Translations under genes and position numbers: made by a program | Shown: positions 46,809 through 58,460 of the stretch, piece after piece | Numbering within the stretch: the stretch's first letter is position 1 | How the letters are laid out: the number at the start of each line of letters is the position of its first letter | NCBI RefSeq assembly: GCF_029338295.1 | Contig: NZ_CP119793.1 | Coordinates: 62,001-126,000, forward strand | Length of the DNA stretch: 64,000 nucleotides | Direction of reading: 5' to 3' | Source of the DNA: Haladaptatus sp. QDMS2 | Lineage (GTDB): Archaea; Halobacteriota; Halobacteria; Halobacteriales; Halococcaceae | Notes under the pieces: model-generated | Told to the model about the DNA's origin: nothing | What the model saw: the letters and a program-made list of their open reading frames with translations, nothing else | Database searches by the model: none

Positions 46809-47396
46809 TCACGTAACGACGATGCCGCCGTCGATCTCCATGTAGGGGTGGCCGTAACCGCAGTAGGTCAGGCAACTCAGCGTGTAATCACCACGCTGTG
46901 TCGCCTCAAGTTGACGAACGACAGGTCTGGTGGCATTCTGTGGGAGGTCGACAGGATGCATCATCATGCCCCCACCCATGTGGACCTGTCCAGACGGCAT
47001 GATTCCGAGACTGTGGTCGGGATACTGCTCGTTCGCCACCTCCAGTAGTTCGTGAAAATCGCCATCAGAAGGAGGCGGAATGCGCTCCTCGTTTCGCTCT
47101 TCGAGCGCCTCGTGGTCAGGAACGGCTTCACGAATCGATGATGGAAGAGCTTGTATGGCTTGACTCGAGAGCGTGTTGAACGCAACGACACGAAGAACAT
47201 CGTTTCGTTGCAGGTTGACACGCTCTAGTTCCTCACCGGAGTCGTTGAACATGACGAAGCCCCAGTGGTAGGCGCCGACGTAAATCGTCCTGTCGACGCC
47301 GCCACTCCCTGGGAGATTCCCGATGCATCCCGAGAGTCCGACAATGCCCGCTCCGAGTGCCGTCAGGAACTCCCGTCGCTGTACTGTCGGAGACAT
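46809..47396 (-). CDS. CuA-like (cytochrome oxidase subunit II-type) Tat lipoprotein
   Basis: A 195-residue protein with a Tat signal (QRREFLTALGAG) and lipobox cysteine (LSGC, about 24). The C-terminus carries the CuA pattern C-x3-C-x3-H-x2-M: C175, C179, H183, M186. In true subunit II, a His upstream completes the site; here a DHSLGI block near residue 130 may supply it, with an insertion before it. There is no oxidase subunit I nearby, so it is likely a copper-binding electron or copper carrier outside the membrane, not an oxidase subunit. A His/Met-rich stretch (VHMGGGMMMHP) adds further copper ligands. Confidence 0.8.
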   Translation of the reverse strand: MSPTVQRREFLTALGAGIVGLSGCIGNLPGSGGVDRTIYVGAYHWGFVMFNDSGEELERVNLQRNDVLRVVAFNTLSSQAIQALPSSIREAVPDHEALEERNEERIPPPSDGDFHELLEVANEQYPDHSLGIMPSGQVHMGGGMMMHPVDLPQNATRPVVRQLEATQRGDYTLSCLTYCGYGHPYMEIDGGIVVT

Positions 47397-47405
47397 GATG
47401 GGAGA

Positions 47406-47765
47406 TTACTGCGACTCCTCGCGGCTGAGTCTCGCACGTCGCTCTTCGAACTCCTCGTTGGAGAGATCACCGCGAGCGTACGCCATCCGTAATTCCTCCA
47501 TTGCCGGATTCTGAGATGTCTGAGATTCTATCACGCGACGGAATACGACGTATCCCCCACCGAGCAGGACAAGAAGGAAGATCAGTGGGACGAGCATCCC
47601 GATGAGTGGCCACCACCCGCTGGTCGTTCCGTATCCGCCCATCATTCCACCGTAACCCATCATTCCGCCGAATCCCATCCCCATCGTGAGCAAGGGGAGC
47701 ACGACGATCGCTCCGAGGATGAGGAGAATGATTGTTGTGATAGTGCGTTGATTAGATGACGACAT
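47406..47765 (-). CDS. SHOCT domain membrane protein, Met/Gly-rich loop
   Basis: A 119-residue protein with two helices (about 8-28 and 51-72) separated by the Met/Gly-rich segment MGMGFGGMMGYGGMMGGYG, and a C-terminal SHOCT domain (AMEELRMAYARGDLSNEEFEERRARL). SHOCT is a short domain for oligomerisation or complex formation. The Met-rich loop resembles copper(I)-binding segments. It lies on the same strand as the CuA-like gene, 9 bp before it, probably in one operon. Confidence 0.85.
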   Translation of the reverse strand: MSSSNQRTITTIILLILGAIVVLPLLTMGMGFGGMMGYGGMMGGYGTTSGWWPLIGMLVPLIFLLVLLGGGYVVFRRVIESQTSQNPAMEELRMAYARGDLSNEEFEERRARLSREESQ

Positions 47766-47771
47766 CGTCAG

Positions 47772-48188
47772 TCATGCCTCCGAGGTGGATTCGAGCTGGT
47801 CAACAACGCTTTCGAGGACGCGCTCGAATCGGTCGTGGACCTCAGTCGCGATCGAGTCGAGCGCCTCATTCTTGGCGACCCCAACGAGCTGTTGTGGGTC
47901 GACTGCACTCACTTTAACCTCGCCGTCGTCGGTTTCGTAGACGATGACGTTACAGGGCAGGAGCGCGCCGAGCTCGATCTCTTCGTTCAGTCCCTCGTGG
48001 GCCAGTGCCGGGTTGCACGCCCCGAGGATGCGGTACTGTCGGAACTCTTCGCCGAGTTTCTCCTCGAGCGTCGCCTGCACGTCGATGTCACAGAGGACGC
48101 CGAAGCCTTCGTCTTTGAGCGCGTCGATGGTCGTCTCGACGACGTCGTCGAACTCGCCGGACACTGCCTTTTGTATTGTGTACGTCAT
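47772..48188 (-). CDS. DUF302 domain protein
   Basis: A 138-residue protein starting MTYTIQKAVSGEFDDVV, matching DUF302 (about residues 5-130) with the LGACNPALAHEGL block. The domain occurs widely in bacteria and archaea, often with metal or redox genes; its role is unknown. It lies on the same strand as the flanking SHOCT genes, the downstream one 6 bp away, consistent with one operon. A start 9 codons upstream is less likely. Confidence 0.88.
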   Translation of the reverse strand: MTYTIQKAVSGEFDDVVETTIDALKDEGFGVLCDIDVQATLEEKLGEEFRQYRILGACNPALAHEGLNEEIELGALLPCNVIVYETDDGEVKVSAVDPQQLVGVAKNEALDSIATEVHDRFERVLESVVDQLESTSEA

Positions 48189-48281
48189 GCAATACTCTAC
48201 TCGATTGAAGGACATAAGCGTGGGGTTTCACTGCGTTTGTGGCGGCTGGAGTCATCCACGATTGAACTGTTACCGGATTGC

Positions 48282-48632
48282 TCATCCAGCACGTTTTAAC
48301 TGTTCGCGCCGTCGTTCGAACTCGTCGTCCGAGAGCTCGCCGCGCGCGTAGCGCTCTCGAAGGACCGACAGCGGCCGTTCGTCTGGTCGGTCTCCGTCAC
48401 GCCCTGCGAGCGCGAAGACCAGGTAGAGCGGGACCGCGATGAGCAATCCCATCCAGAGGAGTCCCCAGAGACTCATCGCGCCGCCGAAGAGTCCCCAGCC
48501 GCCGCCCATCATACTACCGCCGGTGCTGCCGCCCATAGCGGCCGCCGTGCCGGTCGCCGCGACGAGTAGCGGGACGGCGAGCATCGCGAGTCGCCGAGCA
48601 GTGCGTCCGAGAGTAGTGGTGAATTGGGTCAT
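48282..48632 (-). CDS. SHOCT domain membrane protein, second copy
   Basis: A 116-residue protein with two helices (about 14-33 and 52-70), a Met/Gly-rich outer segment (AAMGGSTGGSMMGGGW), and a SHOCT C-terminus (SVLRERYARGELSDDEFERRREQL). Probably paralogous to the 47406 gene. Same strand and order as the copper cluster. Confidence 0.85.
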   Translation of the reverse strand: MTQFTTTLGRTARRLAMLAVPLLVAATGTAAAMGGSTGGSMMGGGWGLFGGAMSLWGLLWMGLLIAVPLYLVFALAGRDGDRPDERPLSVLRERYARGELSDDEFERRREQLKRAG

Positions 48633-48694: not shown

Positions 48695-48991
48695 TCAGCA
48701 GTGGCCCTGTCCGTACATCCCGCCGTCGTAGTCGTCGTCAGCCATGTCCTGAGCCATCTCGTCGACGGTCACACCCATGTGCGACTCCATCCACTCGACG
48801 CTTCCGGGGCCCATGTGGTCGGTCATGTGGGCTTCCATCCAGGCCGCCCAGTCGGCGGCGGTCCCGTCGTACGGGGGCGCGTCGTCAGCGGTCGTGTCGG
48901 TGCCGTGTGCACTGACTACGGGCGCGACGAACGCGAGTCCGATGATCGCGAGCGCCACGAGTAGCCAGCCGCCGAGTTTGAAGGTGGTCAT
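48695..48991 (-). CDS. Exported Asp/Met/His-rich small protein
   Basis: A 98-residue protein with an N-terminal signal or anchor helix (about 6-26, LLVALAIIGLAFVAPVVSA) and a mature part rich in Met, His and Asp (MEAHMTDHMGPGSVEWMESHMG, ending GMYGQGHC). This composition suggests metal (copper) binding outside the cell. Same strand as the copper cluster genes. Family unknown. Confidence 0.75.
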   Translation of the reverse strand: MTTFKLGGWLLVALAIIGLAFVAPVVSAHGTDTTADDAPPYDGTAADWAAWMEAHMTDHMGPGSVEWMESHMGVTVDEMAQDMADDDYDGGMYGQGHC

Positions 48992-49206
48992 TGTCTTTCT
49001 CCTCGGTTACTCGTAGGACCGCTCGGGAGTTATCACGAAGGGTGTGAACCCGCACAGGAGAACGTTCGAGAACGTGTATAGGGCGCTCTAATCGTTTTTC
49101 AGGAATAGAATCGTTCATCTCCATCGAATTCACCGAGGACTAGGTTCGCCCGCCTCATTCATCACAGCTTGATGTTAGAGATAGTCACATGATTCTGAGG
49201 AGGAAG

Positions 49207-49856: not shown

Positions 49857-50195
49857 TTACGCCATCGAGCGGCAGGACTCCGCGCACTCGCGGAGCGGCT
49901 CGACACAGGCCTGACAGTGGTCGTGGTCGTGCTGTTCACACTCGTCAGCACACGCTTCACAGACGTCTGCGCACGTCTCGGCGATGTCGCTGTTGAACTG
50001 CGAGCCCGACGCACAGAGCTGAGCGCACGTCGAGGCGACGGTGACCACGTCGCGGCAAAGTCGGAGGCACTCCGCCATCTCCTCGCCCTTGCCGATGCAC
50101 TCGTCGGCGCAGTGGGCGCACGCCTTCACGGCTTCGTGACAGTTGTCGATACACTCGCGGGTCGAATCGTCGAGCAACTCGTTGATTTGAGCCAT
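49857..50195 (-). CDS. Cys-rich four-helix copper-storage-like protein (DUF326/Csp type)
   Basis: A 112-residue protein with 17 cysteines, mostly spaced C-x3-C or C-x2-C along four predicted helices (e.g. ECIDNCHEAVKACAHCADEC; ETCADVCEACADEC). This is the pattern of copper storage proteins (Csp) that hold many Cu(I) ions within a helical bundle. No signal peptide is visible, so it acts in the cytoplasm (Csp3-like). Located 250 bp from the Lrp-TRASH regulator. Start ATG 50195; earlier in-frame codons are less likely. Confidence 0.85.
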   Translation of the reverse strand: MAQINELLDDSTRECIDNCHEAVKACAHCADECIGKGEEMAECLRLCRDVVTVASTCAQLCASGSQFNSDIAETCADVCEACADECEQHDHDHCQACVEPLRECAESCRSMA

Positions 50196-50445: not shown

Positions 50446-51045
50446 CTATTCGTCAGCTGCTTGCTTCAGGGATTCGTACTGCTCGACGATTTTCTCCGTG
50501 CACGACGAGCAACAGACGTGATACATGTCTCCAGAGTCCACCTCTACTTTTTGACCATCTCCCGAGATCGGGTTTCCACAGATCGTACACTCAATCGTTA
50601 GGTCGTCTGTGCCAAGCTGTGGTTGCCACGACGATCCCAGAATTGACTTCACGCGATAATCCTTGACCTGATCGTCGGTCAGGGTGTCAGTGAGCAGCGA
50701 GCGGAGTTCGGCCGGGGGAAGAACCGCTTTGGCGACGACCGTCGAATCGACTGTATAGAAGACGTGTTCGATGCCGTTGACATCTTGCAACTGGGAGAAT
50801 ACGTCTTCAGCATGGACGAGTCGCGTGTCGATGATGACGAGACACTCATCCTCGTCGGCGAACTTCGTTCGATCAACTTCAACGGTGAACCGCCGGATGA
50901 CGCCAAGGTCACGCAGTCGGTCGACACGATTTGAAACGGTCGGTGGAGAGAGTTCTACCTCCTCCGAAATTTCTCGAAACGACCGACGGGCGTCCTCCAG
51001 TAACAACTCCAAGATAACTGCATCTGTTGAATCTAGTTCAGCCAT
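50446..51045 (-). CDS. Lrp/AsnC regulator with C-terminal TRASH metal-sensing domain
   Basis: A 199-residue protein: AsnC-type winged helix (residues 5-60, STDAVILELLLEDARRSFREI), a RAM-like ligand/oligomerisation domain (about 65-145), and a TRASH domain (about 152-185, CTICGNPI...YHVCCSSC). A haloarchaeal protein of this design (Halobacterium VNG1179C) has been linked to copper response, so copper control of adjacent genes is the natural prediction. Divergent from the permease gene across 250 bp. Confidence 0.9.
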   Translation of the reverse strand: MAELDSTDAVILELLLEDARRSFREISEEVELSPPTVSNRVDRLRDLGVIRRFTVEVDRTKFADEDECLVIIDTRLVHAEDVFSQLQDVNGIEHVFYTVDSTVVAKAVLPPAELRSLLTDTLTDDQVKDYRVKSILGSSWQPQLGTDDLTIECTICGNPISGDGQKVEVDSGDMYHVCCSSCTEKIVEQYESLKQAADE

Positions 51046-51295: not shown

Positions 51296-52624
51296 ATGGA
51301 GAAAAAGGAATACGCGATCCTCGCGGTCATCGCGCTCGCAACGGTCGCACTCGGTGTCGTCACGACGTCGAAGCCCCTATGGACGTTCTTCGCCGAGAGC
51401 ATACAGCAGTTCGCCCAGACCACCGCGGCGATGGCGTGGATCACTTGGTGGGCGCTCGTGATCGGCTTCGCAATCGCCGGCGGCGTCGAGGCCTGGACCT
51501 CCAACGAGCAGGTCGCGGACTTGCTTGACGGTCACGGACTGCGTGAGATTGGCTACGGGTCGCTGTTCGGGTTCGTGTCGTCGTCGTGCTCGTACAGTGC
51601 CATCGCGACCGCGAAGAACCTCTTCAAGAAGGGGGGCTCCGCCGCCGCGACCATCGGGGCATTCATGTTCGCCTCGACAAATCTCGTCATCGAAATCGGC
51701 ATCGTGATCTACATCCTGCTGGGCTGGCAGTTCCTCGTCGCCGACCTCGTCGGCGGATTCATGCTCATCGGGCTGATGGCCTTCGGCTTCGTCTACCTCA
51801 CGCCCGAGGAGGTCATCGAGCAGGCCCGAGAGAACATTCAAGACGAGGGCGACTCGACCGTCCAGGACCCGGTCTGTGGGATGGAGGTCGACCCCGAGGA
51901 GACTGACTACTCGACCGACCACGACGGTCAGACCTACTACTTTTGCTCGGAGTCGTGTAAGGAGAGTTTCGACCCAGAAGAGGCGAACACGACCATCCGC
52001 GAGCAGGCGACCTCCCTCTCGGGCTGGAAGGCGCTCGCGGACAAGCAGTGGTCGGAATGGGGGATGCTCTGGGACGAAATCGCCATCGGCTTCATCTTCG
52101 CCGGCCTCATTGCGGGTTTCATCCCCGAGAGCGTCTGGACGTCCGTGTTCTCAGGGCCGACGTTCGGGCTGCCTGTCTATGTCTTCTGGACGGCAGTCCT
52201 CGGTGCAGTCATCGGCGTCGCGACGTTCGTCTGTTCGGTCGGGAACGTCCCGTTCGGCGCCGTTCTCTACGCCAACGGCCTGCCGTTCGGGTCGGTCCTC
52301 TCGTACATCTACGCGGACCTCATCGTGCCGCCGATTATGGACGCGTACCGTGAGTACTACGGCACGAAGTTTGCAGCCATCCTCTCGGGCATGATCTTCG
52401 TCTCGGCCGTGCTCACGGGTGTCGTCATTCACTTCCTCTTCCTCGGGGCGGGCGTCATCCCGGACCCATCGAGCGTCCAGATTGCAGAGGTGAAAATCGA
52501 GATGAACTACAAGATGGTCCTGAACGTCCTCGCGACCGTCTTCTTCCTGTTCCTCTACTGGCTCCACCGCTCGGACTCGATTGGTGATAAGGTACACGGC
52601 GAGCACGCACACACCGCTGACTGA
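51296..52624 (+). CDS. Permease (UPF0718/DUF318 family) with an inserted YHS domain
   Basis: A 442-residue protein with about nine helices in two halves. Each half carries the family signature: CSYSAIATAKNLF in the first and CSVGNVPFGAVLYANG in the second. Between them, residues about 195-230, is a YHS/TRASH metal-binding domain (DPVCGMEVDPEET...YYFCSESCKESF). The family is related to putative metalloid or metal exporters. The YHS domain between halves probably binds copper and gates or feeds the permease. A TATA-like CGTAAAAG lies near 51267. Divergent from Lrp-TRASH. Confidence 0.87.
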   Translation: MEKKEYAILAVIALATVALGVVTTSKPLWTFFAESIQQFAQTTAAMAWITWWALVIGFAIAGGVEAWTSNEQVADLLDGHGLREIGYGSLFGFVSSSCSYSAIATAKNLFKKGGSAAATIGAFMFASTNLVIEIGIVIYILLGWQFLVADLVGGFMLIGLMAFGFVYLTPEEVIEQARENIQDEGDSTVQDPVCGMEVDPEETDYSTDHDGQTYYFCSESCKESFDPEEANTTIREQATSLSGWKALADKQWSEWGMLWDEIAIGFIFAGLIAGFIPESVWTSVFSGPTFGLPVYVFWTAVLGAVIGVATFVCSVGNVPFGAVLYANGLPFGSVLSYIYADLIVPPIMDAYREYYGTKFAAILSGMIFVSAVLTGVVIHFLFLGAGVIPDPSSVQIAEVKIEMNYKMVLNVLATVFFLFLYWLHRSDSIGDKVHGEHAHTAD

Positions 52625-53330: not shown

Positions 53331-53939
53331 CTAGCTTTGCGTCTGTTCCAGGTCGTCGCTTGGATAAATCCGGTACGTCCGTCCCTGGCGCTCACGGTAT
53401 AGCAGGCCGCGCTTCTCGAGAGCACTGACCGTCTGGCTCACCTTGCTCTTCGAGAAGTCCGACCGGTCCCTGAGTTCGATCTGCGTGATGCCTGGCGAGG
53501 AGAGGACCGGTTCGAGGATACGCCGTTCGTCGTCAGGTAAGAGGTCCAGCACACGTGCCCGAGGCTGGGTTTCTGGATTGATGGTATCGTTCGATTGGGT
53601 GGTGGTGGTGATCGACTGTTCGGATTCAGATCTTCCCTGACCGATTTGATCCGATGCATCACTCCGTTGCTGATCAACCGTCCCAGTGCTGGTGACGTCG
53701 TCGCGAATCATCAAATACCCCCCACCGATGACAACCGAGACGAGGATGGTCCCGAGGACGTACCAGAGCGGATTCGTTCCGTGAACTGCTCCCATCGACG
53801 TCCCCATCATCGATCCCATCTGCTCGAATGCCTGCTGTTGTTGGTACGCCTGCCAGCTGAGCGCGCCACCGATGACAACGACAGCAGCGACGAGGAGACC
53901 GACGATGGCATCGGCTCGCCGTCGATTCATCCATCCCAC
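53331..53939 (-). CDS. Membrane-tethered winged-helix regulator with Met-rich outer loop
   Basis: A 202-residue protein: helix 1 (about 10-28), a short outer loop with EQMGSMMGTSMGAVHG (about 38-54), helix 2 (about 58-76), a long Ser/Thr/Gln-rich linker (80-128), and a C-terminal winged helix (about 132-195; ITQIELRDRSDFSKSKVSQTV). The wing resembles the MarR-type DUF7343 domain of haloarchaea. The loop's methionines match Cu(I)-binding patterns, and the gene stands in the copper island, so it could read outer copper and bind DNA directly (inference). No kinase partner is needed. Confidence 0.8.
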   Translation of the reverse strand: MGWMNRRRADAIVGLLVAAVVVIGGALSWQAYQQQQAFEQMGSMMGTSMGAVHGTNPLWYVLGTILVSVVIGGGYLMIRDDVTSTGTVDQQRSDASDQIGQGRSESEQSITTTTQSNDTINPETQPRARVLDLLPDDERRILEPVLSSPGITQIELRDRSDFSKSKVSQTVSALEKRGLLYRERQGRTYRIYPSDDLEQTQS

Positions 53940-54064
53940 CTCGATTTGCTGTGATACTCGTTCATGTCTGTGAATTGGCCAGACATCGCTGTACCAGTTG
54001 TGATTGACCCCCGCAAGACCCAGGGACGTCTCCGCGCACGCAATTCTGTATCCAGGCGTGGTAC

Positions 54065-54232
54065 TCAGTGCTGCTCATGGCTCTGGGAGGGTCCCGTCCC
54101 TGAAATCTGTGGGTGTTTCTGTGCGAACTCGGCTGGGTTTTCCTCGAATGACCGCTTGCATCGATTCGAACAGAAGTGGTAGGTTTCACTGTTATACGAC
54201 TCGAGGATTCCGTCGGCGAGGGCGGCTTGCAT
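54065..54232 (-). CDS. Small YHS-type metal-binding protein
   Basis: A 55-residue product starting MQAALADGILESYN, with the YHS/TRASH block ETYHFCSNRCKRSFEENP. The usual first cysteine motif (DPVCG) is lacking in this start; an upstream in-frame portion contains more cysteines (YCPTLL, GCDSLD) but no normal YHS start, so the gene may be truncated. Related to the domain inserted in the permease at 51296. Likely binds copper or a similar soft metal. Confidence 0.6.
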   Translation of the reverse strand: MQAALADGILESYNSETYHFCSNRCKRSFEENPAEFAQKHPQISGTGPSQSHEQH

Positions 54233-54552
54233 ATCTAGACTATCGCAACCATCCGTTTTGTTGGTTGTCCTTAATAAAGTGGGGCAGTAGCCACTCTTCA
54301 CTGTGGATTCGAAGGTATAGTCCGTTCTCGGCTGTGACCTACCGTTCGAAGATCGCGTCCCCCGCATATCGATTACCGACGGTCACTGGTTCTAGTTGTC
54401 GATCGTTGCTAACTCCTCCGATAGAGAGGGCGCAAAAACAAGGATGCTGTGGCGTTCTTTTTCCACTCAATGCCCCCTGTCTCAGGCGAAATGGACCCTG
54501 CTTTCGAATAGTAAGAGAAAGTCGATTGAATGAGCCAAGCGTATCTCTAGTC

Positions 54553-56124: not shown

Positions 56125-56243
56125 GACCGCGCAGAACGTTCGAGAACAACCACCCCTGCCGTTCTCTTTCGAGTCCGTTGCTCCCTCAACCGCACAGTGT
56201 CAGGGATCGAATAAATAATGCGAAACGGTACCAATACACACCT

Positions 56244-58460
56244 ATGAGAAAACATCCAGATGACGAGCCCTCCGGACACGCGTCACACGAGCACACGACT
56301 CACGACCGGCCAGACAAGACCACCACCAAACCCGAACGAACGGACCACCATACACATCACTCGCACGAAGGTCAGTCGGGGCACAGCCACACCGAGATTG
56401 AGCGCGGTCACACCGGCGAAACCGTGCACGACGTACATCACGGTGTGCACGTTGACGAGGGTGGACACAGTGACCACACGGCCCACACAGACCACACCGG
56501 TCACGAACAGATGTTTCGCCGCCGATTCTGGGTGTCGCTCGTCCTCTCGATTCCAGTTATCTTCTTCAGCGAATTCATCCAGGGCATCTTCGGATACACG
56601 GCACCGACATTCCCCGGCAGCGTCTGGATTACGCCCGTCCTCTCGGTCGTAATCTTCGCGTACGGTGGCGTGCCGTTCCTCTCGATGGCTCGGACAGAGG
56701 TCGAAAATCGCGAGCCCGGGATGATGCTGCTCATCTCGCTCGCCATCACTGTAGCGTTCGTCTACTCTATCGTGAGCTTGTTCCTCCCCGGGACGACACC
56801 CTTTTTCTGGGAACTCGTCACCCTCATCGACATCATGCTGCTGGGCCACTGGATGGAGATGCGTTCGGTCCGGCAGGCCTCCGGCGCGCTCAATGAACTG
56901 GCGAAACTCATGCCCGACACCGCTGAGCGCCTCACCGAGGGTGGTGACACTGAGGAAGTCCCTGTTTCCGAACTGTCCGAAGGTGACGTCGTCCTTGTTC
57001 GTCCAGGTGCTTCGGTTCCCGCAGACGGCGAAGTCGCTGAAGGCGAGTCTTCCGTGGATGAATCGATGATTACGGGTGAATCCCGACCAGTAGACAAAGT
57101 CCCCGGGTCGGAGGTCGTCGCGGGGACGGTCAACCAGGACGGGAGCCTACGGGTCCGCGTGACTAAGACCGGCGACGAGACGACGCTCGCGGGCATCATG
57201 CGCCTCGTCGACGAAGCACAGAAGTCGAAATCACGTACGCAACTGCTCGCTGACCGCGCAGCAGGATGGCTGTTCTATATCGCGCTTGCCGTTGCCGGAA
57301 TCACGGCTGTCGCATGGGTCGTCGCGACGGGATTCAACCTCACCGTCCTTGAACGCGTTGTCACGGTCCTCGTCATCGCCTGTCCACACGCGCTCGGCCT
57401 TGCCGTCCCGCTGGTCGTGGCTATCAACACTTCCACAGCTGCCCAGAACGGGATGCTCATTCGGGACCGGATTGCGATGGAGGAGGCTCGAAATCTCGAT
57501 ACGGTGATTTTCGACAAGACTGGGACGCTCACCAAGGGCGAGCAGGGCGTCGTTGGCATCCAGACGGCAGATGGCTGGGACGAAGAGCAAGCGCTCGAGA
57601 TTGCCGCCGGTGTCGAGGGCGACTCCGAGCACATGATTGCCCGAGCGATCCGAACAGCCGCTGAAGGACGTGGTGTCCAGCGAGCCAGTGTGTCGAACTT
57701 CGAGAACCTCCGTGGGCTCGGGGTCAGAGCGACCGTAGAAGGAGAGACAGTGCATCTCGGTGGACCGAATTTGATTGAAAAACTCGACATCGAGCGATCC
57801 GACGAACTCGAGTCGTTCGCCGATCAAGCCGGCTCGAACGCCCAAACGGTCATCTACCTCATTCGTGACGAATCCGAGGTCGTGGCGGCGTTCGCTCTCG
57901 CGGACGTAATTCGTGAGGAGAGCCGCCAGGCCATCGAAGCGCTCCACGGGATGGGCATTGAGGTTGCGATGCTAACCGGTGACAGTGAGGATGTGGCACG
58001 CGCGGTTTCCGAGGAACTCGGTATCGACCAGTACTTCGCAGAGGTGTTGCCCGAAGAGAAAGATACCAAGGTCGAACGGCTCCAGTCAGAGGGGAAACTG
58101 GTTGCGATGGTCGGCGACGGGGTTAATGACGCCCCCGCCCTGACCAGAGCGGACGTGGGAATCGCCATCGGCTCCGGAACGGACGTCGCCATCGAGTCGG
58201 GTGATATCATTCTCGTCGACAACAACCCGCTTGATGTCGTCCGCCTCATTCGTTTGTCGAAAGCGAGCTATCGGAAGATGCAGGAGAATCTCGTGTGGGC
58301 GACTGGTTACAACGTGTTCGCGCTCCCGTTGGCTGCGGGGATTCTCGCCCCCATCGGAATTTTACTGTCGCCCGCAATCGGTGCGGTGTTCATGTCGCTG
58401 TCGACGATCATCGTCGCGATTAACGCCCGGCGACTCAAGGGAGTCGACCTCACGACATGA
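56244..58460 (+). CDS. copB: Copper-transporting P-type ATPase, CopB type
   Basis: A 738-residue P1B-type ATPase. Its first 90 residues are very His-rich ([22 protein letters not shown]), a probable metal-binding tail. Helix 6 carries the CPH motif ([11 protein letters not shown]), which defines the CopB (P1B-3) subclass, exporting Cu+ or Cu2+. Phosphorylation motif DKTGTLT, TGES, HP-like and [12 protein letters not shown] blocks are present. A TATA-like CGAATAAATA lies at about 56208, giving a leaderless start at ATG 56244. Its stop overlaps the start of the next gene (ATGA). Confidence 0.93.

Follow-up and report, generated by a model that had tools for sequence, protein, structure and literature searches.

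Introduction

How might a haloarchaeon perceive copper outside its cytoplasm, and by what route could such a signal reach its genes? The question is raised by a small regulatory protein encoded among copper genes of Haladaptatus sp. QDMS2, in a stretch of 64,000 nucleotides of contig NZ_CP119793.1 which was analysed as a whole and to which we will refer as “the window”. Archaeal sensing of metals outside the cell is a largely uncharted area; the haloarchaeal copper regulator characterised so far, VNG1179C, is cytoplasmic (PMC3551603), and a 2022 study of Haloferax mediterranei describes the metal-responsive regulators annotated there as unrelated to copper (PMC9240420). A preliminary description of the locus had proposed that the protein is a kinase-free, one-component membrane copper sensor, and this proposal, as far as sequence can judge, has survived all tests run (a universal loop, the positive-inside rule, and copper genes at most of its loci). 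New here are a conserved exported partner and a phased DNA element that tracks the regulator.

A Membrane-Anchored Winged-Helix Regulator

The open reading frame at 53331-53939 lies on the minus strand; a plus-strand reading of the same stretch was rejected, as it contains two stops. Three codons inside the GTG start (53939) there is an ATG at 53930, which is probably the true start because Met occupies this fourth codon in all 40 aligned family members. The gene of this membrane-anchored winged helix-turn-helix (wHTH) regulator spans 53331-53930 (minus strand; up to 53939 if GTG is the start) and encodes 199 residues from the conserved ATG. In the numbering from the 53939 GTG, used below unless otherwise stated, a basic N-terminus (RRR at 6-8) leads into a first helix (about residues 6-42), followed by a loop, a second helix from P57, an acidic linker (about 82-124) that differs in sequence and length among aligned members, and the winged helix (126-198). 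The latter (DUF7343/MarR_2; 53346-53564, minus strand) was recognised by Pfam, alignment, AlphaFold2 and Foldseek, with 37.4 bits for DUF7343 (cut-off 27.6), 33.7 for MarR_2 (cut-off 27), and MarR proteins as best structural matches (E about 1e-4). It is nearly invariant across aligned members, including SKSKVSQTV in the recognition-helix region. The AlphaFold2 model (a monomer from a 37-row alignment, with a moderate mean pLDDT of 62.5, which rises to 79-86 within the winged helix and is lower in the other parts) places, in the 199-residue numbering, a helix at 3-39, a loop, a helix at 54-93, disorder, and the wHTH at 123-195; two hydrophobic helices are found in each parsed family member as well as in the model. 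The order of helix, Met-rich outer loop, second helix, polar linker and C-terminal MarR-type wing given in the preliminary description is thus upheld by alignment, Pfam and AlphaFold2, both Pfam families scoring above their cut-offs. Annotation knows the family only as a MarR family regulator; a 99.5% identical member is encoded on a Haladaptatus plasmid.

The long, variable and disordered linker invites the idea that a membrane protease cuts the winged helix off at this point, so that it acts as a soluble regulator. We hold this to be very improbable, as no conserved cleavage motif was seen in the linker of the aligned members, and the archaeal precedent ArnR has been described as a membrane-bound transcription factor (PMC6396743).

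Upstream of the gene, the alignment of upstream regions revealed a conserved motif, AATCACAACTGGTACA (53990-54005, minus strand; 60-75 nt before the regulator ATG), whose sole exact match in the window is the one at this position, and which may serve this gene as promoter or upstream element. The motif AATCANAACTGGTACA (53990-54005, minus strand) is also present at the same position in close relatives, and is unrelated to the phased element described below.

A Universal Met/His Loop

Between the two transmembrane helices stands the loop MGSMMGTSMGAVHGTNPL (53766-53819, minus strand; residues 41-58), whose ligands in the window regulator are M41, M44, M45, M49 and H53, with no Cys. The loop was parsed automatically in 108 distinct members (three further ones, for which parsing failed, were left out), and each of the 108 carries four to seven Met plus His and zero Cys; homologues with fewer than four such residues, or with a Cys, did not appear in this comparison. 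Met accounts for 14.7% of loop residues vs. 0.37% elsewhere in these members, and His for 4.9% vs. 0.39%; the Met loop is not a matter of chance. Its letters drift while the Met/His chemistry is kept, as in MGSMMGTSMGAVHG or, in distant family members, MMGHTAVHGPHP, GHMGTSVTAMHGTHP and MMGQMMGTMPGMDP.

A conserved Arg follows helix 2, and basic residues are few in the loop. Together with the basic N-terminus, these traits point, by the positive-inside rule, to a loop outside the cell and a winged helix inside, and the topology predicted here agrees with that assumed in the preliminary description. Ligand sets made of Met and His, with Cys lacking, are well suited to Cu+ or Ag+ where the exterior is oxidising.

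Family Distribution and Copper-Gene Neighbourhood

A scan of genome contigs gave 40 family loci in 17 named haloarchaeal genera and further strains. A profile of the N-terminal 82 residues (strong match, E at most 1e-4) detected the family in 136 of the 391 genomes surveyed within the class, about a third of these haloarchaea; among 393 genomes drawn from the phylum there were 26 carriers, all in one and the same order. At two loci (L097 and L115) the regulator is truncated, with the membrane part kept and the winged helix missing, and the phased element is absent from both genomes.

A copper-type gene was found within about 5-6 kb of the regulator at 69 of 96 distinct loci, the remaining 28% or so having no obvious one within reach. 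P-type ATPases, mostly with a CPH or CPC motif, are near the regulator in 39/96 loci; given about five such genes in this 3.9-Mb genome, only 1-2% of random positions would be expected to lie equally close. Neighbouring genes in related loci were called by a simple script which can miss genes, so these counts are lower bounds. Multicopper oxidases, plastocyanin-like, SHOCT and DUF302 proteins also recur, and a Csp-like protein was met; Haloarcula marismortui pNG600 (regulator WP_011222408.1, downstream operon from WP_004594618.1 on) and the Haladaptatus plasmid mentioned above are two named examples of such loci.

In the window, copper genes flank the regulator on both sides, as the preliminary description had claimed. 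Upstream lie an HMA protein and a copper P-type ATPase of CopB type (56178-58460, plus strand; CPH motif, His-rich N-terminus; TIGR01511 616 bits, cut-off 397). Downstream lie an ArsP_1 permease with an internal YHS domain (Pfam; 51296-52624, plus strand), an Lrp/AsnC-TRASH copper regulator of VNG1179C type (Pfam; 50446-51045, minus strand; 2.3 kb from the membrane regulator), and a DUF326 four-helix copper-binding protein. The Lrp-TRASH protein is near-universal, being present in 384/391 haloarchaeal genomes, and represents a separate system. The DUF326 protein (49857-50195) is Cys-rich and Csp-like, and appears as “four-helix bundle copper-binding protein” in the annotation of a near-identical plasmid.

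At 29 other loci, the regulator gene is preceded on its own strand by one for an ArsP-type permease that carries its YHS domain at the C-terminus, with about 130 bp between the two. The window keeps only the YHS-domain tail of such a permease (54065-54367, minus strand), the rest being missing; on the evidence of its alignment with the C-terminal YHS of the usual permease, this is a remnant of the regulator's usual upstream partner. The permease at 51296-52624 was considered as the cognate partner and rejected, as the usual one differs (31-39% identity over the main stretch) and its tail is that at 54065-54367. The YHS domain of the 51296-52624 permease is situated mid-protein (residues about 189-230), not at an end.

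These neighbours also bear on the nature of the signal. The loop could respond to something other than copper, be it silver, mercury, zinc, or Met oxidation by reactive oxygen or hypochlorite: Met-rich sites bind Ag+ besides Cu+, Met can act as an oxidation sensor, SO_0444-type permeases are by family name tied to Cu and Zn alike, and some regulator loci have no copper pump. However, the conserved His beside the loop Met, the lack of Cys, and the repeated company of Cu-type ATPases, plastocyanin-like proteins, multicopper oxidases and a Csp-like protein all favour copper, and we regard a different signal as unlikely.

A Conserved Exported Partner and Its Probable Operon

The regulator's most constant downstream neighbour is a small exported protein whose N-terminus is signal-like and whose body is rich in Met and His. 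Its gene shares the regulator's strand and follows at a median distance of about 200 bp; in the window it lies 4.3 kb beyond it (48695-48991, minus strand), and the protein ends in GQGHC. The partners fall into two clusters, one of 46 loci mostly ending in GHC, HGC or GCH, the other of 17 loci with a very His-rich variant. Proteins of this family are annotated as hypothetical, and neither a Pfam family nor a solved relative in the PDB was found for the window protein; its structure model, of moderate confidence, consists of three short helices besides a signal helix. Homologues of the 48695-48991 protein were noted at more than 60 loci. It resembles the regulator loop in composition, and is probably copper-binding.

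Four further minus-strand genes follow in a row with short gaps (48991-46809), which looks, from gene order and spacing, like a single operon. The likely second gene encodes a SHOCT-domain membrane protein with a Met/Gly-rich segment (48282-48632), and the likely third a DUF302 protein (47772-48215), a family annotated in the near-identical plasmid and confirmed by Pfam on the pNG600 homologue. Next come a second SHOCT-domain protein with an MMGYGGMMGG segment (47406-47765) and, as the likely last gene, an exported or lipoprotein-like protein (46809-47396) with a CuA-like motif, CLTYCGYGHPYM, recognised by eye. Up to the second SHOCT gene, the order is identical in Haloarcula marismortui pNG600.

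The constancy of the exported protein and its loop-like composition admit another reading, in which it forms part of the sensor, binding outside copper and reporting to a loop that reads the protein instead of free metal. Exported metal-binding partners of bacterial membrane sensors are known, for example CnrX and ZraP. Nevertheless, the loop alone keeps ligands enough for a metal, and the position of the exported protein is equally well accounted for if it is a regulated product, so a sensor role seems to us rather improbable.

A Phased Repeat Element Upstream of the Probable Operon

Position matrix, genome search and alignment define a conserved 95-bp element (49031-49125, minus strand) with four phased RAACGNTCT boxes, found upstream of the exported partner in nearly all loci. 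The boxes occupy 49116-49108, 49097-49089, 49077-49069 and 49067-49059 on the minus strand, about 68-125 bp upstream of the partner's start codon, and are followed by GTTCACACCC and GATAAC; their ACG triplets succeed one another at 19, 20 and 10 bp, and hence lie on one helix face. Conservation extends over 26 diverse sequences. A matrix derived from 29 of the sequences gave a score of 118 at 49031-49125 and did not exceed 12 at any other place in the window; in a shuffled window the highest score was about -37. A sequence-only covariance model gave one full-length match in this genome (E 4e-21), before the exported partner; other matches (22 bits and below, partial) were rejected as chance because none of the three inspected precedes a copper gene. 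We regard the element as a candidate operator plus promoter. The preliminary description had looked to copB or the permease as targets, but both were rejected: no element match precedes either, and the sole full-length element stands before the exported-protein operon (48991-46809).

Some variants were noted in passing. In three loci of one genus (L082, L083 and L085), the distance from box 4 to GTTCAC, read by eye, is 11 bp or one helical turn longer, the first box is apparently missing, and the element lies about 100 bp upstream of an exported His-rich gene. A few genomes carry a further copy ahead of a different gene, which is SHOCT-like in two of them; the second copies at L092 and L093, and at L096 and L101, are reversed on the regulator's far side, or precede a SHOCT-like gene at a position some 510 bp upstream.

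Association of Regulator and Element

Regulator and element occur together. Among the 391 genomes, 134 have both, two the regulator only, four the element only and 251 neither, i.e., the element is present in 134/136 carriers and 4/255 non-carriers. The Fisher p of 2e-97 counts genomes as independent, and is far too strong because their relatedness is ignored. Both regulator-only genomes have regulators without a winged helix. Among the element-only genomes, four in all, one encodes a divergent regulator close to the element that the N-terminal profile missed, and the other three have no intact partner after the element (in one the partner gene is fused by deletion to a SHOCT-like gene, in two there is no partner open reading frame).

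In most cases the element lies next to the regulator, so part of this co-occurrence is due to the two being inherited together. In the window, 4.2 kb and intervening genes separate them; distances reach at least 400 bp in 24 of 77 same-strand cases, and the element is on the opposite strand in seven loci, which argues against pure linkage, and against the element being merely the regulator's 3' flank.

The element might instead be bound by another copper regulator (Lrp-TRASH or ArsR-like), the membrane regulator merely travelling with it and controlling its own gene or the usual upstream permease. Physical linkage, which accounts for part of the co-occurrence, and the different motif in the regulator's own promoter, AATCANAACTGGTACA, would suit this, and in Halobacterium copper is known to be regulated by Lrp-TRASH proteins (PMC3551603). 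On the other hand, Lrp-TRASH proteins are found in nearly all genomes, whether the element is present or not, so they cannot explain its distribution and were rejected as its binder; the element is missing from 251 of the 255 genomes without the regulator, and from the two whose regulators lack the winged helix. We consider a different binder unlikely on these grounds.

Proposed Mechanism and Significance

The reading we prefer, and judge probable from these sequence comparisons, is that a one-component, membrane-anchored copper sensor controls an envelope copper-handling operon through the phased element. The outer loop, with its four Met, one His and no Cys, would bind copper, in all likelihood as Cu+, on the external side of the membrane; this would alter the pairing or clustering of the regulator's two helices, and this change would be relayed via the flexible linker to the cytoplasmic winged helices, which would bind the four phased boxes. 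The operon so controlled would supply the exported Met/His-rich protein, the two Met-rich SHOCT proteins, the DUF302 protein and the CuA-like protein. Copper would more probably switch it on than repress it, as the boxes precede what is likely the core promoter, a position that in archaea favours activation. Speculatively, phased direct repeats could accommodate several anchored subunits lined up along one face of the helix. MarR-like proteins commonly bind palindromes, and direct repeats would be unusual for them, which counts against the proposed operator.

A wider and distinctly more tentative suggestion, which we think doubtful as it stands, is a three-part archaeal copper signalling unit not described before. 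In it, a one-component membrane sensor would use its Met/His loop to detect copper, several anchored subunits would bind along one DNA face to an operator of four helically phased boxes, and the exported protein rich in Met and His would serve both as product and as feedback reporter of outside copper. Since the family comes with a predicted operator and product, it is directly testable in culturable organisms. If the preferred mechanism is true, the regulator, with a short loop and two helices, would be a very small model for metal-signal transfer from a membrane protein to DNA.

Comparison With Known Systems

Open-access literature, whose silence is weak evidence, yielded no description of this regulator family or of any membrane one-component copper sensor, nor a paper on DUF7343. 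Archaeal copper-responsive regulation is known from Lrp-TRASH VNG1179C of Halobacterium (PMC3551603) and CopR of Pyrococcus (PMC7830388), but these are cytoplasmic, sense intracellular copper and use a Cys-rich TRASH metal site, whereas the regulator has no Lrp or TRASH match and no loop Cys, and is not of this type. In CusS/CusR copper is sensed outside the cytoplasmic membrane (PMC10100754), as proposed here, by a separate histidine kinase that works with a response regulator; in the present case sensor and DNA-binding part are joined in one small protein with neither a histidine kinase nor a receiver domain, so it is not a CusS-type two-component sensor. Neither is it a CopY-type repressor, its CopY_TcrY score being 14.6 bits vs. 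a cut-off of 122. With classical MarR proteins it shares the MarR-type winged helix (MarR_2, Foldseek). In classical MarR proteins, which stand alone, N- and C-terminal helices form a dimerisation domain. In the monomer model of the regulator a single short helix precedes the wHTH core and hardly any helix follows it, transmembrane helices and a linker being present instead, and the element associated with it, a candidate operator only, consists of phased direct repeats vs. the classical palindrome.

Predicted one-component proteins that combine a DNA-binding domain with at least one transmembrane region have been termed transmembrane transcription regulators (TTRs; PMC10269533), a definition that covers the regulator by virtue of DUF7343/MarR_2 above cut-off and two hydrophobic helices. 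Like it, CadC, ToxR and TcpP have a DNA-binding domain, one or more transmembrane segments and no kinase, and are proposed to act from the membrane; the regulator differs in its two N-terminal helices, in a short Met/His loop that makes up the entire outer part, and in having its MarR-like wHTH C-terminally. In the main text of the TTR survey (PMC10269533) neither copper nor metal nor MarR is mentioned. The nearest archaeal precedent is ArnR/ArnR1 of Sulfolobus acidocaldarius, likewise membrane-bound, one-component and with a helix-turn-helix (PMC6396743). ArnR/ArnR1 have an HTH in the N-terminal region, as opposed to the C-terminal wHTH here, control archaellum and pili genes under nutrient limitation, and are not known to have a Met/His loop.

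The haloarchaeal DUF7343 wHTH proteins, with nine matches in this genome, have the C-terminal domain in common with the regulator. Its eight paralogues, most of them longer, reach 59-110 bits, and at least one is a long protein with an N-terminal signal-like segment. ArnR and ArnR1 of Sulfolobus acidocaldarius were reportedly also the subject of a study by Lassak in 2013. Within the DUF7343 set, the regulator is the weakest of the nine matches (39.6 bits), and in it the Met/His loop replaces a large outer domain.
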